DNA of 64,000 nucleotides from Candidatus Sulfopaludibacter sp. SbA3 (GTDB lineage: Bacteria; Acidobacteriota; Vicinamibacteria; Vicinamibacterales; UBA2999), in NCBI GenBank assembly GCA_945903265.1, contig CAMDNQ010000008.1, positions 62,001 through 126,000 of the forward strand. The letters run 5' to 3'. Below the pieces are notes generated by a model. That model saw only the letters and a program-made list of their open reading frames with translations. It searched no databases and was not told where the DNA came from. This document shows positions 42,294-50,391 of the stretch, piece by piece (the first letter of the stretch is position 1; each line of letters begins with the position of its first letter). The position numbers and the translations under genes are program-made.

Positions 42294-43607
42294 GTGACCG
42301 CACCCCTTCAAATCGCGTCGAGCGGTGGCAAGCTCGGCGTACTGCTCGTCGGGCTCGGCGCCGTGGCGACGACGACCATCGCCGGCGTATTTGCCATCCG
42401 CAAAAAGCTCGCGTTGCCGATCGGATCGCTGACCCAGATGGGCACGATTCGGCTCGGCAAGCGCACCGAGAATCGCAGTCCCCTGATCAAGGATTTCGTT
42501 CCGCTCGCGGACCTCAACGACATCGTCTTCGGCGGCTGGGACATCTTCGAAGAGGACTGCTACGGCGCTGCGCGCACCGCGGGCGTGCTCGAACCCGCAC
42601 AGCTCGATCAGGTCCGTGGCGAGCTGGAGGCGATTCGGCCGATGTCCGCCGTGTTCGACCAGCGGTACGTGAAGCGTCTCGACGGGCCGAACGTCAAAAA
42701 GGGCAAGAACAAGCGCGACCTCGCCGAGCAGGTCATCGCGGACATCCGCGCGTTCAAGGACAAGCACGGATGCGACCGTCTCGTCATGATCTGGACCGGC
42801 AGTACCGAGGTCTACATGAAGGAGACCGCGGTGCATGCCACCGTGGCGTCATTCGAGAAGGCGCTCGAACAGAGCGACGACGCCATTCCGTCGAGCATGG
42901 TGTACGCCTACGCGGCGATCCGTGAGGGCATCCCGTTTGCGAACGCCGCGCCGAACCTGACGGCCGACATCCCCGCGATGCTGGAGTTGGCCGCGCGCAC
43001 CCAGGCGCCGCTCGCCGGCAACGACATGAAGACGGGGCAGACGCTGATCAAGACGATTATTGCGCCCGGCCTCAAGGCCCGGCTGCTCGGCGTCCGTGGC
43101 TGGTACTCGACCAACATCCTTGGCAACCGTGACGGCGAGGTCCTCGACGACCCCGAGTCGTTCAAGACGAAGGAAGAGAGCAAGAAGTCAGCGCTGGATT
43201 ACATCTTCCAGCCGCAGCTCTATCCCGAACTCTACAAGGACTTGTGCCACGTAGTCCGCATCAACTACTACCCCCCGCGCGGCGACAATAAAGAGGGGTG
43301 GGACAATATCGATCTGATCGGGTGGCTAGGCTATCCGATGCAGCTGAAGATCAATTTCCTGTGCCGCGACAGTATTCTGGCGGCGCCGATTGTGCTCGAT
43401 TCGGCCCTGTTCCTCGACCTCGCGAAGCGGTCCGGCATGTCGGGCATCCAGGAATGGTTGTCGTTCTATTACAAGGCACCCATGCACGCTCCCGAGGTCT
43501 ACCCCGAACACGATCTGTTCATTCAGCTGATGAAGCTGAAGAACACTCTTCGCTATATGAAGGGCGAGCAGCTGATCACGCACCTCGGCCGGGAGTATTA
43601 CGACTAG
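42294..43607 (+). CDS. ino1: Inositol-3-phosphate synthase
   Basis: This NAD-dependent enzyme isomerises glucose-6-phosphate to myo-inositol-1-phosphate, the first step toward inositol lipids and inositol osmolytes. The 437 residues show the NAD motif 'GVLLVGLGAVATTTIAG', 'KAPMHAPEVYPEHDL' and 'MKTGQTLIKTIIAPGL', and a C-terminal 'LKLKNTL' core. The length fits the long, eukaryote/actinobacterium-like type. Start GTG 42294 has no Shine-Dalgarno but a good promoter ends 9 bases upstream. The downstream G8 protein has its own ribosome site. Confidence 0.93.
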   Translation: MTAPLQIASSGGKLGVLLVGLGAVATTTIAGVFAIRKKLALPIGSLTQMGTIRLGKRTENRSPLIKDFVPLADLNDIVFGGWDIFEEDCYGAARTAGVLEPAQLDQVRGELEAIRPMSAVFDQRYVKRLDGPNVKKGKNKRDLAEQVIADIRAFKDKHGCDRLVMIWTGSTEVYMKETAVHATVASFEKALEQSDDAIPSSMVYAYAAIREGIPFANAAPNLTADIPAMLELAARTQAPLAGNDMKTGQTLIKTIIAPGLKARLLGVRGWYSTNILGNRDGEVLDDPESFKTKEESKKSALDYIFQPQLYPELYKDLCHVVRINYYPPRGDNKEGWDNIDLIGWLGYPMQLKINFLCRDSILAAPIVLDSALFLDLAKRSGMSGIQEWLSFYYKAPMHAPEVYPEHDLFIQLMKLKNTLRYMKGEQLITHLGREYYD

Positions 43608-43630
43608 TCCGCACGACTGAAGGAGTTGTC

Positions 43631-45829
43631 ATGAGACGCACCGTGATCGGAATCGGCGCCCTGGCGCTGGTCGCGTCGGTCGGCACCCTCAACGCTCAGG
43701 ATCACCCTCACCTCGCCGCCGCGAGCGGCGTGCCGCACGGCATCCCCCGCATCTGTGCTGACGCGACAGTCACGTCGGTGGCGAGCGGCTCCTGGTCCGC
43801 GCCGTCGACATGGTCGACGCGGCAGGTGCCCGGTGCGGGCGCCGCGGTGCGCGTCGCGTCCGGCACGCGGGTCGCCTACGACGTTGTCAGCGACGCGGCC
43901 ATTCGGTGTGTCGACGTCGAAGGCGAACTCAGATTCCGGACGGACGCGGATACACGGCTGACGGTAGGTACCCTGACCGTCCTGGAGACCGGACGCCTTG
44001 AAATCGGCACGGTCGACCAGCCGATTGCCGCAGGGGCGACGGCGGAGCTCGTCGTGGCCGATCAGCCGATCGACACCGCGCGCGATCCGGAGCAGATTAC
44101 GGGCGGTCTCATCGGGCTTGGGACGATCCGGATGCATGGGGCGGTGAAGTCCCCGACCTTTGTTCGAGTCACGGCCGAACCGCTGGCGCGCCACACCACG
44201 CTGCAGCTCGAAGAGGCGGCGTCAGGATGGGCGCCGGGCGACAAGCTCGTGATTCCCGACACGCGCCAGCTTCGCCAGAACGAGCGGGGGACCAGCTACG
44301 TCCCTCAGTGGGAAGAACTGTCCCTGGCCGCCATCACCGGCCGGACAGCGACAATTGCGTTGCCGCTCCGGTTCGATCACCGCGGCGCTCGTGCCGCCGA
44401 CAACCGCATCGAGTTCCTGCCTCACGTCGGCAACGTCACCCGCAACGTCGTCGTCCGTTCGGAGAATCCGCAGGGCACACGCGGACACGTGATCTTCGTG
44501 ATGCATCCCGATGTCGACATCCGGTACGCGGCGTTCAAGGACCTCGGCCGCACGCGAATGGGCGTGCTCAGTAATACCGAGTACGGGACCGACGGCGGCG
44601 TGCGACGCGTCGGGACCAACCAGATTGGACGCTACTCGCTCCACTTTCATCACGCGTTTGGCCCGCGGACGCCGAATCCGAGCGGATACCAGTTCACCCT
44701 CATCGGCAACGCGATAGACGACGCCTCGAAGTGGGGCATCACGATTCACAACAGCCACTTCGGCCTGATCCGCGACAACGTCGTCTACAACTCGCGGGGC
44801 GCGGGCATCGTGACCGAGGACGGCAACGAGAGCTTCAACGTCTTCGATCACAACTTCGCGATGCGGTCCGAGGGATCAGGCGAGTTCGCGCCGCGGAGCG
44901 GCTACGGCGGCGCAACGGGCGATCCCGGCGGCGAGGGCGCCGGCTTCTGGCTGCGCGGGCCGAATAATACGCTTCGGAACAACGTCGCGGCCAACGTCGA
45001 CGTGTTTGGCTACGGCATCGCCGCAGGCGCGATCGAGGCGGTGCGCGTGCCAACGTTCAAGGGCGCGGACAACAGCAAGAACGGCGAGTTCACGACGATC
45101 GATGCCGTCGATACGCCGCTCCTGGAGTTTTCCAACAACGAAGCCTACGGCGCCATCCAGACCGGCATGGCCATCGGCTGGAACGGCATCGTCAAGGGCC
45201 TGCGCGTGTGGCACACGTCGCGGAATGCCATCACGGCGTTTCCTGCCGATCGCTTGGAGATCGACGGGGCCGTCGTGCGGGGGGATCCCGCCGTCCTGTC
45301 CGGCGCCTTCGAGAACCCCACGGGCATCTGGTTCAGTAACTACGTCGCCAAGACCGTGACGGTGCGCAACAGCGACGTGCAGGGGATGCGCGTCGGCGTG
45401 GCGAGCCCGTTCTTCTCGCGCATCGACGCGGAGCCGGGGCGCGGCGACGGCGTCGCGACCGTCGAGAACAGCTTCCTGCGGAATTACGTGGGGATCGCGG
45501 TTGCGACCGCGTATCGGCCGGAAACGACGCAGGCGCCAGTGAAGAAGGGCGTCATTCGTAACACGCGGTTCGAGCCGCTGGCGGGGGTGACACCCGCGAT
45601 GTATCCGGCCGCGGCCATCTCGATGAATTACGGGATGTCATCGGGCGACATCACCCTTCGCGATCCGCTGGTCGTGTACGACTTCAATGGCAAGGCGGGC
45701 GACACGTTCCGGGTGTTCTACTCGCACGAGGTGCCGGCCACCGCGGCCCCGGCGTGCAACGCCCCGCGCGCCGACATCGGCGGATTTGTGTGTGCCGGGG
45801 ATGACGGTCTTCAGGAATCGAGACGCTGA
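43631..45829 (+). CDS. Secreted G8-domain/right-handed beta-helix protein
   Basis: This 732-residue secreted protein has a signal peptide (ending near LNAQ), a G8 domain (residues about 40-190: 'SGSWSAPSTWSTRQVPGAGA', 'VRVASGTRVAYDV', 'GTLTVLETGRLEIG'), and then a right-handed parallel beta-helix with PbH1-like rungs ('GITIHNSHFGLIRDN', 'GIVTEDGNESFNVFDHN'). The same architecture occurs in human CEMIP/TMEM2, linked to hyaluronan degradation, and in bacteria of unknown role. A polysaccharide substrate is an inference. AAGGAG lies 7 bases before ATG 43631. Its last 19 bases overlap the convergent GGDEF gene. Confidence 0.85.
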   Translation: MRRTVIGIGALALVASVGTLNAQDHPHLAAASGVPHGIPRICADATVTSVASGSWSAPSTWSTRQVPGAGAAVRVASGTRVAYDVVSDAAIRCVDVEGELRFRTDADTRLTVGTLTVLETGRLEIGTVDQPIAAGATAELVVADQPIDTARDPEQITGGLIGLGTIRMHGAVKSPTFVRVTAEPLARHTTLQLEEAASGWAPGDKLVIPDTRQLRQNERGTSYVPQWEELSLAAITGRTATIALPLRFDHRGARAADNRIEFLPHVGNVTRNVVVRSENPQGTRGHVIFVMHPDVDIRYAAFKDLGRTRMGVLSNTEYGTDGGVRRVGTNQIGRYSLHFHHAFGPRTPNPSGYQFTLIGNAIDDASKWGITIHNSHFGLIRDNVVYNSRGAGIVTEDGNESFNVFDHNFAMRSEGSGEFAPRSGYGGATGDPGGEGAGFWLRGPNNTLRNNVAANVDVFGYGIAAGAIEAVRVPTFKGADNSKNGEFTTIDAVDTPLLEFSNNEAYGAIQTGMAIGWNGIVKGLRVWHTSRNAITAFPADRLEIDGAVVRGDPAVLSGAFENPTGIWFSNYVAKTVTVRNSDVQGMRVGVASPFFSRIDAEPGRGDGVATVENSFLRNYVGIAVATAYRPETTQAPVKKGVIRNTRFEPLAGVTPAMYPAAAISMNYGMSSGDITLRDPLVVYDFNGKAGDTFRVFYSHEVPATAAPACNAPRADIGGFVCAGDDGLQESRR

Positions 45830-46752
45830 CTGAGTACGCGGTTGCCGCCGGCCGCGCCTGCGCGGCCGACGGCAGCCACCGCCTGCTCGAGCAGCACCTC
45901 GGCCTTCATCGCGCGCGCGGCTGACGGCACGACCAGCACTCCCACCGACACCGTCACCGCGTAGGCTTCGTCCGATCGATGATCGTGGAGCCGCATCCGC
46001 TCCTGCACGGTCACGCGGATCCGCTCGGCGAGCCGCTCCGCATTGAACCCCTGGATGTCCGGCATCAGCACGCCGAACATGTCTTCACCCAGCCGGCCCA
46101 CCCAATCCGTCTCGCGGAAGTAGTTGCGGACGACGATCCCGATGCGCTCGATCACCCGGTCTCCGGCCCCGCGTCCGTGCTTGGCGTTGATGTCCTCGAG
46201 GTCGTCGACGTCGAGCACGATAACCGCGAACGGATAGCCGAAGCGCTCGGCGCGCTGAATCTCCTTCTCGAGCGCCGCGACGAACACCGCCCGTGTATGC
46301 AGGGTCGTCAGCGGGTCGACAATCGAATGGCCGCTGCGGCCGACATGTTCTGACGCCGCGGCACACACGTCGAGCGAGGCCCGATGCAGCATCTGGGTCA
46401 GTGTCGGCCACGGTTCCGACTCGATGCCGAAGGATTCGTCCTGCGCGAGTTGATCGAGCGCCGACCGCTCCATCAGGTACATGACCGTGAACAGCAGCCT
46501 GACCGACACCTCGTGCTGCACCGCCAGACGCCCAAGGTCCGCGACGACCGGGTAGTCGGCATCCAGCTCGCCGTCCCTGACCGCGGTCGTCAGCAGCTGG
46601 AAGGCGAGATCCCCGAGCCTGGCCCGGTCCTCGGCGCCGACGTGCTCGATCCCGGCAAACGGGTAGACGCCCAGGGTGTCGGTGACGATCTCACCGGCGT
46701 GGCCCTGGAGAATACGCGCCACCTGCGTGCGCAGTTCGACGGATTCCTGCAC
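45811..46752 (-). CDS. GGDEF-domain protein with degenerate active site
   Basis: This 313-residue cytoplasmic protein has an unassigned helical N-terminal region (about 1-150) and a GGDEF domain (about 150-305; 'PLTTLHTRAVFVAALEKE'). The signature reads G222-E223-D224-M225-F226 instead of G-G-D-E-F, so the second glycine and the catalytic glutamate are changed. It is therefore unlikely to make cyclic-di-GMP and may bind GTP or act as a regulatory domain. Start GTG 46752; GTG is the outermost codon and no Shine-Dalgarno is evident. The protein is divergent from a type IV pilus-like ATPase. Confidence 0.82.
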   Translation of the reverse strand: MQESVELRTQVARILQGHAGEIVTDTLGVYPFAGIEHVGAEDRARLGDLAFQLLTTAVRDGELDADYPVVADLGRLAVQHEVSVRLLFTVMYLMERSALDQLAQDESFGIESEPWPTLTQMLHRASLDVCAAASEHVGRSGHSIVDPLTTLHTRAVFVAALEKEIQRAERFGYPFAVIVLDVDDLEDINAKHGRGAGDRVIERIGIVVRNYFRETDWVGRLGEDMFGVLMPDIQGFNAERLAERIRVTVQERMRLHDHRSDEAYAVTVSVGVLVVPSAARAMKAEVLLEQAVAAVGRAGAAGGNRVLSQRLDS

Positions 46753-46878: not shown

Positions 46879-48885
46879 GTGCGTACGATGATCGGTGAGT
46901 GTCTCCGCCAGGCGGGGATCATCACCGAGGACAATCTGCAGACCGCGCTGGTGGAGCACAAACGCTCGGGTGAGCGTCTGGGTTCGGTACTGATCCGCCT
47001 GAATATGGCGACCGAGCGCCAGATTGCGGAGGCGCTCGCCTACCAGCTGGGGTTCGCGTACGCGGACCTCGTTGCACATCCGCCGGATCCCGGCGCGGTC
47101 ATCCTGATTCCCAAAGACGTCGCCCTCAAGCGCAACTGCATCGGCGTCGCCGTCGAGAAGAACGTGCTGACGGTGGCGATGTCGGATCCGCTCCTCTTTA
47201 CCCTGGTGCAGGATCTCGAGTTCCAGACGGGATACCGCATCAAGCAGGTCGTCGCGACGCGCGGCGAGATCATCGAAGCCATTCAGGCCTGGTACCCGGA
47301 CAAAGCGCTTACGCGCGTCACCCCGGGCAGCATGCAGAGCCGGAGCCGCGACGACGTGGCGCGCGGGGGCATGCTCGCGCCGCGCACGCCCGGGACGCCC
47401 GCCGTCGTGCGCGACGAGGACATCTTCGAGCAATCGACCACTCACACGACCGGGACGGCCGAGACCGCCCCGATCATTGACATGGTCGAGCTCGTCATCA
47501 GGAACGCGCTGAAGAGCCACGCCAGCGACATTCACATCGAGCCGACGGAGGGTGACGTGGTCGTCCGCCATCGGCTGGACGGGCTGCTCAAAGAAGTGAT
47601 GGACCTGCCGAAGTGGGTCCATGACGGCGTCGTGGCGCGCGTGAAGATCATGGCGGGTCTCGATATCGCGGAGAAGCGGCTGCCGCAGGACGGACGCATT
47701 CGCACCACCGCCGACGACGGGCAGGACGTCGATCTGCGCGTCTCGACCCTCCGCACGATCTTCGGCGAAAAGATCGTGATGCGCGTGCTCGACCACCGGA
47801 AAGGCGTGCCGCCGCTCGAAGAACTCGGGTTTTCGGCGGCCTCGATGGAGCATCTCCGTTTCTTCCTGCGCCATCAGCACGGCATGATCCTCGTCGTCGG
47901 ACCGACCGGGTCCGGAAAGACGACCTCGCTGTCGTCCGCGCTTGCGTCGATCCGGTCAGAACGGACGAACATCATCACGATCGAAGACCCGGTGGAGTAC
48001 CAGATTCCCGGCGTCAACCAGACGCAGATCAACACGAAGATCAACCTGACGTTTGCGAGCGCGCTGCGATCGATCCTCCGGCAGGATCCCGACGTTGTCC
48101 TGGTCGGAGAAATCCGCGATCAGGAGACGGCGCGCATCGCGATGCAGGCCGCGCAGACGGGCCACCTCGTGCTGTCGACGCTGCACACGGACGACGCACC
48201 GTCGTGTGTGACGCGTCTCACCGACATCGGCATCGAGCCGTATGTCTCGGCGTCGGCCCTCATTGGCGTTGTCGCCCAGCGCCTCGTGCGGCGGCTGTGC
48301 TCAGACTGCCGTCGTCCGTACACTCCCGAACCTGAAACGCTGCGGGCGATGGGCGTCTCCGAAGCGGACGCCGGAGCGCAGACGTTCTATCGCGCTGATG
48401 GTTGCGACAAATGCAATCAGACTGGGTATCGGGGACGCGTGGGCATCTACGAGATCATGGCGGTGACCGACAGCCTGCGGCGGCTCATCGCGCAGCGCGG
48501 CGCCGAGGCGCAGCTTCGTGAAGCCGCGATTTCCGCCGGCATGATCACGCTTGGCGAGGACGGCTTGCTGAAGGTCAAGGCGGGGATGACCTCGCCCCAG
48601 GAACTGCTCCGCGTGGTCACCGAAGTCCGGCAGACGCGCGCGCTGTGCCCCGGCTGCGGCGCGGCGACCTCGCCCGATTTTTCCGTGTGTCCGACCTGTG
48701 GCCACGGACTCGGCGGGGGATGCCCCCATTGCCGGCGCCCGATCCAGGCCGAGTGGAAGTTCTGCCCGTATTGCGCCAAGACCACTGCGGTGAGCGGCGC
48801 CAAAAAGGCTTCGCGTCGTCTCGACACGCGACGGTCGATTGCCGAGCTACCCGCCGGGCGCAACGTCGCGGAATTCAAGAAATAA
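46879..48885 (+). CDS. PilB/GspE-type ATPase with C-terminal double zinc ribbon
   Basis: This hexameric ATPase drives type IV pilus or type II secretion assembly from the cytoplasm. The 668 residues hold an N-terminal MshEN domain (LRQAGIITEDNLQ..., about 1-150), the T2SSE core with Walker A GPTGSGKT (K347), the Asp box 'IRDQETARIAMQ' and the usual Cys tetrad (CSDC...CDKC). Two extra zinc ribbons follow: C590/C593/C604/C607 and C615/C618/C629/C632. Such a tail is not part of PilB as I know it. GTG 46879 is chosen because GGGGG lies 6 bases upstream; ATG 46888 is three codons in. A J-domain gene follows 13 bases later. Confidence 0.87.
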   Translation: MRTMIGECLRQAGIITEDNLQTALVEHKRSGERLGSVLIRLNMATERQIAEALAYQLGFAYADLVAHPPDPGAVILIPKDVALKRNCIGVAVEKNVLTVAMSDPLLFTLVQDLEFQTGYRIKQVVATRGEIIEAIQAWYPDKALTRVTPGSMQSRSRDDVARGGMLAPRTPGTPAVVRDEDIFEQSTTHTTGTAETAPIIDMVELVIRNALKSHASDIHIEPTEGDVVVRHRLDGLLKEVMDLPKWVHDGVVARVKIMAGLDIAEKRLPQDGRIRTTADDGQDVDLRVSTLRTIFGEKIVMRVLDHRKGVPPLEELGFSAASMEHLRFFLRHQHGMILVVGPTGSGKTTSLSSALASIRSERTNIITIEDPVEYQIPGVNQTQINTKINLTFASALRSILRQDPDVVLVGEIRDQETARIAMQAAQTGHLVLSTLHTDDAPSCVTRLTDIGIEPYVSASALIGVVAQRLVRRLCSDCRRPYTPEPETLRAMGVSEADAGAQTFYRADGCDKCNQTGYRGRVGIYEIMAVTDSLRRLIAQRGAEAQLREAAISAGMITLGEDGLLKVKAGMTSPQELLRVVTEVRQTRALCPGCGAATSPDFSVCPTCGHGLGGGCPHCRRPIQAEWKFCPYCAKTTAVSGAKKASRRLDTRRSIAELPAGRNVAEFKK

Positions 48886-48898
48886 TCCCGTCTCGTAG

Positions 48899-49696
48899 AT
48901 GTCCACCAGTTTCTACGAGCTCCTCGGCGTCGCTCGCGGCGCCCCTGCGGATGAAATCAAGCGCGCCTTCCGGCGTGAGATCGCGAAGTATCACCCCGAC
49001 AAGGTCCAGCATCTCGGGAAAGAATTCCAGGAAATCGCCGCCGTCAGGTCCGCGGAGCTGACGCGCGCGTACAAGACGCTGACCGAAGACTCGGCTCGCG
49101 CGGAGTACGACGAGGGTCTTGGCGACGCGCCCGCCAGGCCTTCGCCGGTGACCCCTGCCGCCGACGCAGGGTCGTCGCCGCCGCGCCGGTCGGAGCCTGT
49201 CGTCACCTCGACGCCGCCGCGGCCGGCGTTCGGGTCGTCTGCCGACCGCGCCGGCGCGAGCGATCTCGTTCGCAAGGCCGCCGTCGTTCGATTTCGCCAG
49301 GCGGTGAACGAGGAATTCGGACGCTGTGAGGAAGCCCCCGCCGTGGGTTTCGAAATTGCCTGCGCTCCGGCCAAGGGCGCCTTCTGGAACAAGGTGCCTC
49401 CGCGGATCCTTGCGCGGTTTGTTCCGCAGGTGGACGCCGCGGCCATCGCGGAAACCTGGGCGCTGGCGTCCCGTGCGCAGCGCGACGGCCAGCGCGAGAT
49501 CTGTGTCTTCGTGATGGGACCGGCCGTCTCTCCCGTCGCGCAGCTCGCACGCGCCATAGCCGATGAAATGCGCAGGCAGACGGCCGCGGTGAAACTGTCG
49601 ATCGTTCCCGTCAACACGCGCACCTGGTCCGCGGATATCCCGAAGGACGCGCCGCCCGCCGTGAAGTCGCTGGCGGCGCGGCTCAAATCGCTCTGA
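48899..49696 (+). CDS. J-domain (DnaJ-type) protein
   Basis: This 265-residue protein has an N-terminal J-domain (residues 1-70, [20 protein letters not shown], with H32-P33-D34). It should stimulate DnaK ATPase. The zinc-finger and C-terminal DnaJ client-binding domains are absent. A Pro/Ser-rich linker (about 80-125) leads to an unassigned tail of about 140 residues. It lies 13 bases after the PilB-zinc ribbon gene and 8 bases before the ABC gene, so it is probably in one operon. A role as a chaperone partner for that ATPase is inferred only from position. Confidence 0.82.
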
Positions 49697-49704
49697 CAGG
49701 ACCG

Positions 49705-50391
49705 ATGGCGCTGATTGAGACGACCGACCTCTGGAAAACCTACACGATGGGGACAGAGGACGTCCACGCGCTCCGCGGCGTGTCGCTGCAAATCGAGCGT
49801 GGCGAATACGTGGCGATCATGGGGCCGTCAGGATCCGGCAAGTCGACGCTGATGAACCTGATTGGCTGTCTCGACACGCCAACCAAGGGGACGTACCTCT
49901 TGAACGGCAAACGTGTCAGCGACATGAACGACGACGAGCTCGCCCGCATCCGGAACGAGGAAATCGGGTTCGTGTTTCAGACGTTCAACCTGCTGCCGCG
50001 TGCGTCGGCGCTCCACAACGTGGAGCTGCCGCTGGTCTACGCCGGCGTGTCCGGGGCGGACCGCACGGCACGCGCGACAGCCGCGCTGGAGAAGGTGGAT
50101 CTGGTGTCCCGCATGCGGCATCGGCCCAATGAACTGTCAGGGGGCCAGCGGCAGCGCGTGGCTATCGCGCGCGCGCTCGTGAACAACCCGTCGATGCTGC
50201 TGGCGGATGAGCCGACGGGAAACCTCGACTCAAAGACGGGCGCCGAGATCATGGCGCTGTTCGACCGGCTCCACGAGGCGGGCAACACCATCCTTGTCGT
50301 CACGCACGAGGCCGACGTTGCCGCCTTCGCGCACCGCGTTCTCCACTTTCGCGACGGGCAGATCGAACGCGACGTCCGACGCGCGGCGTAA
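49705..50391 (+). CDS. LolD/MacB-type ABC transporter ATPase
   Basis: This 228-residue ATP-binding protein matches the LolD/MacB/FtsE branch. Walker A is GPSGSGKST, the Q-loop is '[10 protein letters not shown]', the signature is LSGGQRQRV and Walker B is '[11 protein letters not shown]'. The length is typical. In this branch the permease is usually next door, but none is seen here; the neighbours are the J-domain gene (8 bases upstream) and, convergent, the OppF-like ATPase. AGGA lies four bases before the ATG. It may serve lipoprotein sorting or peptide export through a permease elsewhere. Confidence 0.9.

Follow-up and report, generated by a model that had tools for sequence, protein, structure and literature searches.

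The window, the whole 64,000-nucleotide stretch of Candidatus Sulfopaludibacter sp. SbA3 DNA analysed here, carries on its forward strand a gene for a PilB/GspE-type ATPase of 668 aa with a C-terminal double zinc ribbon, hereafter called PilB-DZR (46879-48885, from a GTG start at 46879 to a TAA stop at 48885; the start residue is the same in orthologues). The protein begins with a degenerate 53-residue MshEN_N motif of the c-di-GMP type (46891-47046; NCBIfam NF053729, aa 5-56), followed by an MshEN domain (47050-47301; Pfam PF05157, aa 58-141, E=1e-16) and a T2SSE motor core (47458-48612; Pfam, aa 194-578, E=9e-128) containing Walker A/B and the CM-domain Cys tetrad C474/477/509/512. The double ribbon C590/593/604/607 and C615/618/629/632 comes next (48646-48774; Pfam DZR PF12773, aa 590-632, E=1.2e-9, 38.6 bits against a cut-off of 27.3). 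The original prediction had described an MshEN-T2SSE ATPase with a normal Cys tetrad and two ribbons; the Pfam domains agree. Across the orthologues (44/44) none of the eight cysteines of the ribbons or the four of the tetrad has changed, and Walker A varies only by T/S at one position. Judging from their sequence, the ribbons probably bind zinc. A C-terminal peptide that had escaped the original prediction, ELPxxxN[VI][AT]EFK (48844-48882), given more fully as ELPxxxNVAEFKK, occurs with slight variation in 43 of the 44 orthologues; the lone orthologue without it, L146 in genome G003, is accompanied by a J protein lacking its J-domain end and part of the linker. Structure prediction gave a confident core whose best fold matches are PilF/PilB structures, ribbons with a pLDDT of about 60-70, and a disordered final peptide. 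A docking arm would be expected to look like this, which is nevertheless no evidence for one.

After a spacer of 13 bases, the same strand encodes a J-domain protein of 265 aa (48899-49696). Its J domain with the HPD motif (48911-49111; Pfam DnaJ, aa 5-71, E=2.8e-14) is the only part with a Pfam family match, and no other DnaJ parts were found beyond it. Both the spacing and the missing DnaJ middle had been read correctly from the letters alone; with a J domain, HPD and no G/F-Zn-CTD DnaJ body, this is a class C J-domain co-chaperone. YHPDK is intact in all 48 loci, among 50, with a readable J frame. The remainder of the protein contains an alpha/beta domain (49238-49693; model pLDDT mostly 80-97) of a family found with PilB-DZR, for which fold comparison returned a weak NucS/MspJI nuclease-like match only (E about 0.02), and no function was assigned. 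The window's genome has a single full-length DnaK, two other weak matches being frames of about 343 aa, and the sequence of the J protein suggests that it recruits or stimulates DnaK. Apparent natural PilB-J fusions at L127, L132, L133 and L134 were rejected: there PilB lies in a different frame from J, which merely remains open on its upstream side.

On the reverse strand, ahead of PilB-DZR, lies a divergent GGDEF gene (45811-46752) that the original prediction did not mention. Its product has a degenerate catalytic motif (GEDMF) and keeps the I-site RETD; none of 37 such proteins has GG[DE]EF, and all 37 have RxxD at I-site spacing. These residues lead us to predict a c-di-GMP receptor, and the protein may well bind the messenger. 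The motor's own motif is degenerate. Compared with the VcMshEN c-di-GMP motif, our reference for the residues (PMC5013675), R9 is replaced by K in most of the 44 orthologues and by M in the window, Q32 by H in 43/44 and G47 by N in 40/44, while Q61 is kept; PilB-DZR thus lacks the two intact RLGxx..G..L..L..Q motifs of an MshE-type c-di-GMP ATPase. Further upstream, 43298-45829 encodes a G8 and CEMIP beta-helix protein adjoining an inositol-phosphate synthase gene; because the long frame runs into the gene before it, its true start lies later.

PilB-DZR has the architecture of PilB, with MshEN plus T2SSE, the Walker motifs, the Cys tetrad and PilF/PilB folds, but stands apart from it in several respects. 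It scored 585.6 bits with the PilB model TIGR02538, below the curated cut-off of 675.65, whereas the pilB of the relatives' pilBTC operon scored 765; it forms its own clade in the tree, bears the extra ribbon and tail, and has no pilT, pilC or pilA operon partner beside it. Canonical pilB is a separate paralogue in these relatives, within a pilB-pilT-pilC operon, and is apparently missing, like pilBTC as a whole, from the window's genome (family searches in a 45-contig assembly). With GspE and MshE, of type II secretion and the MSHA pilus, PilB-DZR shares the MshEN N-terminus, and some sister loci have a secretin, an MshM/ExeA-like AAA ATPase and TPR genes close by; it nevertheless fell below the GspE cut-off (TIGR02533, 562.7 against 630.25 bits), and the degenerate c-di-GMP motif and added ribbon tail also set it apart. 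The gene module to which it belongs is built on an already known motor family.

In order to assess conservation, we scanned named genomes with only the T2SSE core end and the ribbons of PilB-DZR as seed, which yielded 50 Acidobacteriota loci. The J gene lay directly downstream in 50/50, the ABC gene was found in 45 and the divergent GGDEF gene in 38; failure of the J gene to persist beside the ATPase would have spoken against the original idea. Among 59 related genomes, PilB-DZR is present in 24 and the J family in the same 24 (some cut by contig ends), while the 35 others contain no full J protein and only C-terminal remnants in two. Orthologues of the next gene, ABC1 (about 80-84% identity), served to locate the slot in genomes without PilB-DZR. 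In 20/20 slot regions read in this way, the orthologous ATPase, J and GGDEF genes are all missing, with flanks such as INO, ABC2/3, MCM, GPM and ENO mostly in order. Since the divergent GGDEF gene is missing together with PilB-DZR and J, it belongs to the module. Both states occur within at least two genera (g2: G029; g16: G031), so the module was lost jointly more than once. The original prediction had drawn the run as ATPase, J and ABC: the ATPase-J pairing stands, but the LolD/MacB-like ABC ATPase (49705-50391, forward strand) is a bystander, because it is kept in the 20 relatives where PilB-DZR and J are gone, and we rejected it as a member. PilB-DZR, J and GGDEF form a real, conserved three-gene module in one Acidobacteriota order of soil, groundwater and lake bacteria. 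Exceptions exist. At three orthologue loci, L109, L133 and L146, the upstream sequence is long enough but has no GGDEF gene, and in genome G142 (L218, 8384-9275) J is intact while some 34 codons from the C-terminal end are all that remains of the preceding ATPase. At L225 (5142-9271, G031), where the module is missing, we identified by eye chaperone-usher-looking (spore coat U-like) genes beside ABC1.

The 64-kb window gave no further match to T2SSE, T2SSF or N_methyl. The lack of adjacent pilus genes, noted originally, holds for the window's family, whose PilB-DZR locus contains neither a platform nor a pilin gene. It does not extend to sister families, where genes of PilM-like, secretin, T2SSF, pseudopilin and two-component type occupy this chromosomal slot. 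L120 begins with a response regulator and a second MshEN-T2SSE ATPase, continues with T2SSF and a pseudopilin, and goes on to GGDEF, PilB-DZR, J and ABC1. At L133, PilB-DZR comes after genes for a pseudopilin, a PilM-like protein, a histidine kinase and an NtrC regulator. The L083 locus contains a fragment of a secretin gene along with genes for an MshM/ExeA-like AAA protein, GGDEF and a PilM-like protein. A PilM-like gene was found in 15/50 loci, a call that rests on profile comparison (99.5% probability) with a G050 protein, itself weakly matching PilM. The histidine kinase and NtrC-type regulator of L133 (3405-6323) occupy the place of the GGDEF gene of other loci. A second ATPase-T2SSF-pseudopilin set was seen in the same slot in two lineages (L120, 1283-4961; L241, 7524-11160), which suggests the remains of a pilus cluster broken up in other lineages. 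In the window's genome, the single non-Tad T2SSF protein found is GspF-like, on contig C21, with its own ATPase. The identity of the platform or filament that PilB-DZR may drive is something that we infer.

The ribbon tail is not unique to this gene, and the literature searched gave no described role for it. In 297 sampled Acidobacteriota genomes, ribbon-tailed ATPases were found in 16 (11 double, 5 single), full-length J in 10 and both in 9, G123 being one of the nine and G142 the genome with J alone; most short ribbon matches in this phylum search were open frames of 130-320 aa, no ATPases, and were left uncounted. Some of the ATPases are fused to receivers. MshEN-T2SSE-DZR-receiver proteins of about 770-870 aa occur in the same order (L058, 7726-10299; L060, 6355-8862; L061, 6486-8786; L062, 4744-7344; genomes G050, G046 and G056); they share the core and double ribbon with PilB-DZR but differ from it by a response-regulator receiver domain after the ribbon and by having no adjoining J gene. 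MshEN-T2SSE ATPases with a single C-terminal zinc ribbon form a separate clade in several Acidobacteriota families (L071, L086, L087, L088 and L089). In G064, genes for a GspG-like pseudopilin and another cysteine-rich protein lie ahead of a DZR ATPase (L084, 9550-12546), which converges with a zinc-ribbon Ser/Thr-kinase-like gene. No J gene accompanies the zinc-ribbon ATPases of G064 and G050. The tree did not join the two DZR-plus-J lineages as sisters, nor did it recover a common origin of all ribbon-tailed ATPases. Literature searches for a ribbon-tailed PilB/GspE, or for PilB with DnaJ and a zinc ribbon, found nothing, and wider ones nothing on point.

Could PilB-DZR and J simply be unconnected neighbours, kept side by side by general conservation of gene order? 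The whole region from INO to GLGC is indeed conserved in order across the order. Yet the surrounding order is equally kept in the 20 genomes that miss exactly these genes, and in G123, a genome of a distant family, the ATPase/J pair sits in an unrelated gene setting; we disfavour this explanation as improbable. DZR domains are common protein-interaction modules. Zinc ribbons also often bind nucleic acid, as the original prediction had considered for this one, and the double ribbon could then mark a DNA-uptake or RNA-linked motor, a reading with which the nuclease-like match of the J C-terminal domain would agree. That match is weak, however, and a look for competence genes at the locus found none; nothing supports binding of nucleic acid by the ribbon, and we hold such a motor to be very unlikely.

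A more serious alternative, although still rather unlikely in our estimation, is that PilB-DZR moves no filament but is a signalling or scaffolding ATPase, which senses the envelope or c-di-GMP state and relays it via J and DnaK, for example to exopolysaccharide. The locus without platform or pilin gene in the window's family and the lone non-Tad T2SSF with its own ATPase fit such a role, and M. xanthus PilB is reported to be an EPS regulator (PMC5544727). Against this, the motor residues and Cys tetrad of PilB-DZR are invariant, and in sister families the slot has retained genes of pilus type.

We favour a motor of the pilus or type II secretion kind, coupled to a receptor resembling FimX and to an Hsp70 recruiter of its own, an account whose chances we judge to be even. 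PilB-DZR would be an ATP-driven hexameric motor of the pilus-extension or type II secretion kind, with the ribbon and C-terminal peptide as docking arm. The J protein, made together with it, would recruit and activate the cell's single DnaK at the motor, and DnaK would there remodel motor complexes or signal motor activity onwards. In this proposal the degenerate GGDEF protein would be a c-di-GMP receptor licensing the motor, a part that FimX plays for PilB, since the c-di-GMP motif of the motor itself has decayed. Docking and physical contact between the module proteins are presumed throughout. This account draws on the invariable J adjacency, the joint presence (24/24 against 0/35), the G123 pair and the joint absence in 20 relatives, and also on the pilus-type genes in the slot elsewhere, the pseudopilin beside the G064 DZR ATPase and the degenerate GGDEF and MshEN motifs. 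Speaking against it are the J gene without ATPase in G142, the ribbon ATPases without J in G064 and G050, the three loci without GGDEF, the lack of a cognate platform gene beside PilB-DZR in the window's genome, and DZR-plus-J lineages that are not sisters. We go one step further, more tentatively, in suggesting a chaperone-coupled motor fixed genetically, in which ribbon and tail recruit J/DnaK and c-di-GMP sensing has moved from MshEN to the pseudo-GGDEF partner. The original idea of a pilus or secretion motor tied to chaperone recruitment gains support from the sequence comparisons, because J adjacency is invariable and the pair is jointly present or absent.

Both halves of this proposal have precedents. 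FimX binds c-di-GMP via its EAL domain; our Pfam scan found no EAL domain in the GGDEF protein and no PilZ partner was seen at the locus, the candidate site being the I-site of a degenerate GGDEF, so that a FimX-like partner of PilB-DZR is an analogy. In P. aeruginosa, PilB is described as no high-affinity c-di-GMP receptor and is served by FimX (PMC5595344), and by analogy the likeness that we propose is to FimX-PilB of Pseudomonas and Xanthomonas, in which a receptor serves a motor poor at binding c-di-GMP (PMC5595344, PMC8389850). On the chaperone side, Nostoc DnaK1/DnaJ3 associates with active pilus motors, with two-hybrid contacts between DnaK1 and PilB and between DnaK1 and Hfq (PMC9239167). 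The cyanobacterial DnaK1/DnaJ3/GrpE system resembles PilB-DZR/J in tying a specific J protein and DnaK to pilus motors; its evidence is genetic and from interaction, the pairing having been found through co-expression and co-occurrence (PMC9239167). Here, unlike in cyanobacteria, the J gene adjoins a ribbon-bearing motor gene, and the contact between the two proteins is a predicted one. In the pilus-EPS pathway of Myxococcus, the Hsp70 protein StkA has its place between pili and Dif (PMC4319316).

An Hsp70/J link to type IV pilus motors is thus on record for cyanobacteria and, from genetics, for Myxococcus, and how the chaperone reaches the motor is not established in the literature searched. 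In the Acidobacteriota module, a proposed adaptor (ribbon and tail) is co-inherited with its J protein and offers a candidate interface that does not vary, so that chaperone recruitment becomes directly testable with small constructs. If the proposal is true, one module joins two controls so far known only separately, from cyanobacterial DnaK1/J3 and Pseudomonas FimX. It suggests that control by c-di-GMP can pass repeatedly, in the course of evolution, from a motor to its partner protein, and hints at a pilus-type motor placed under both a chaperone system and a second messenger.
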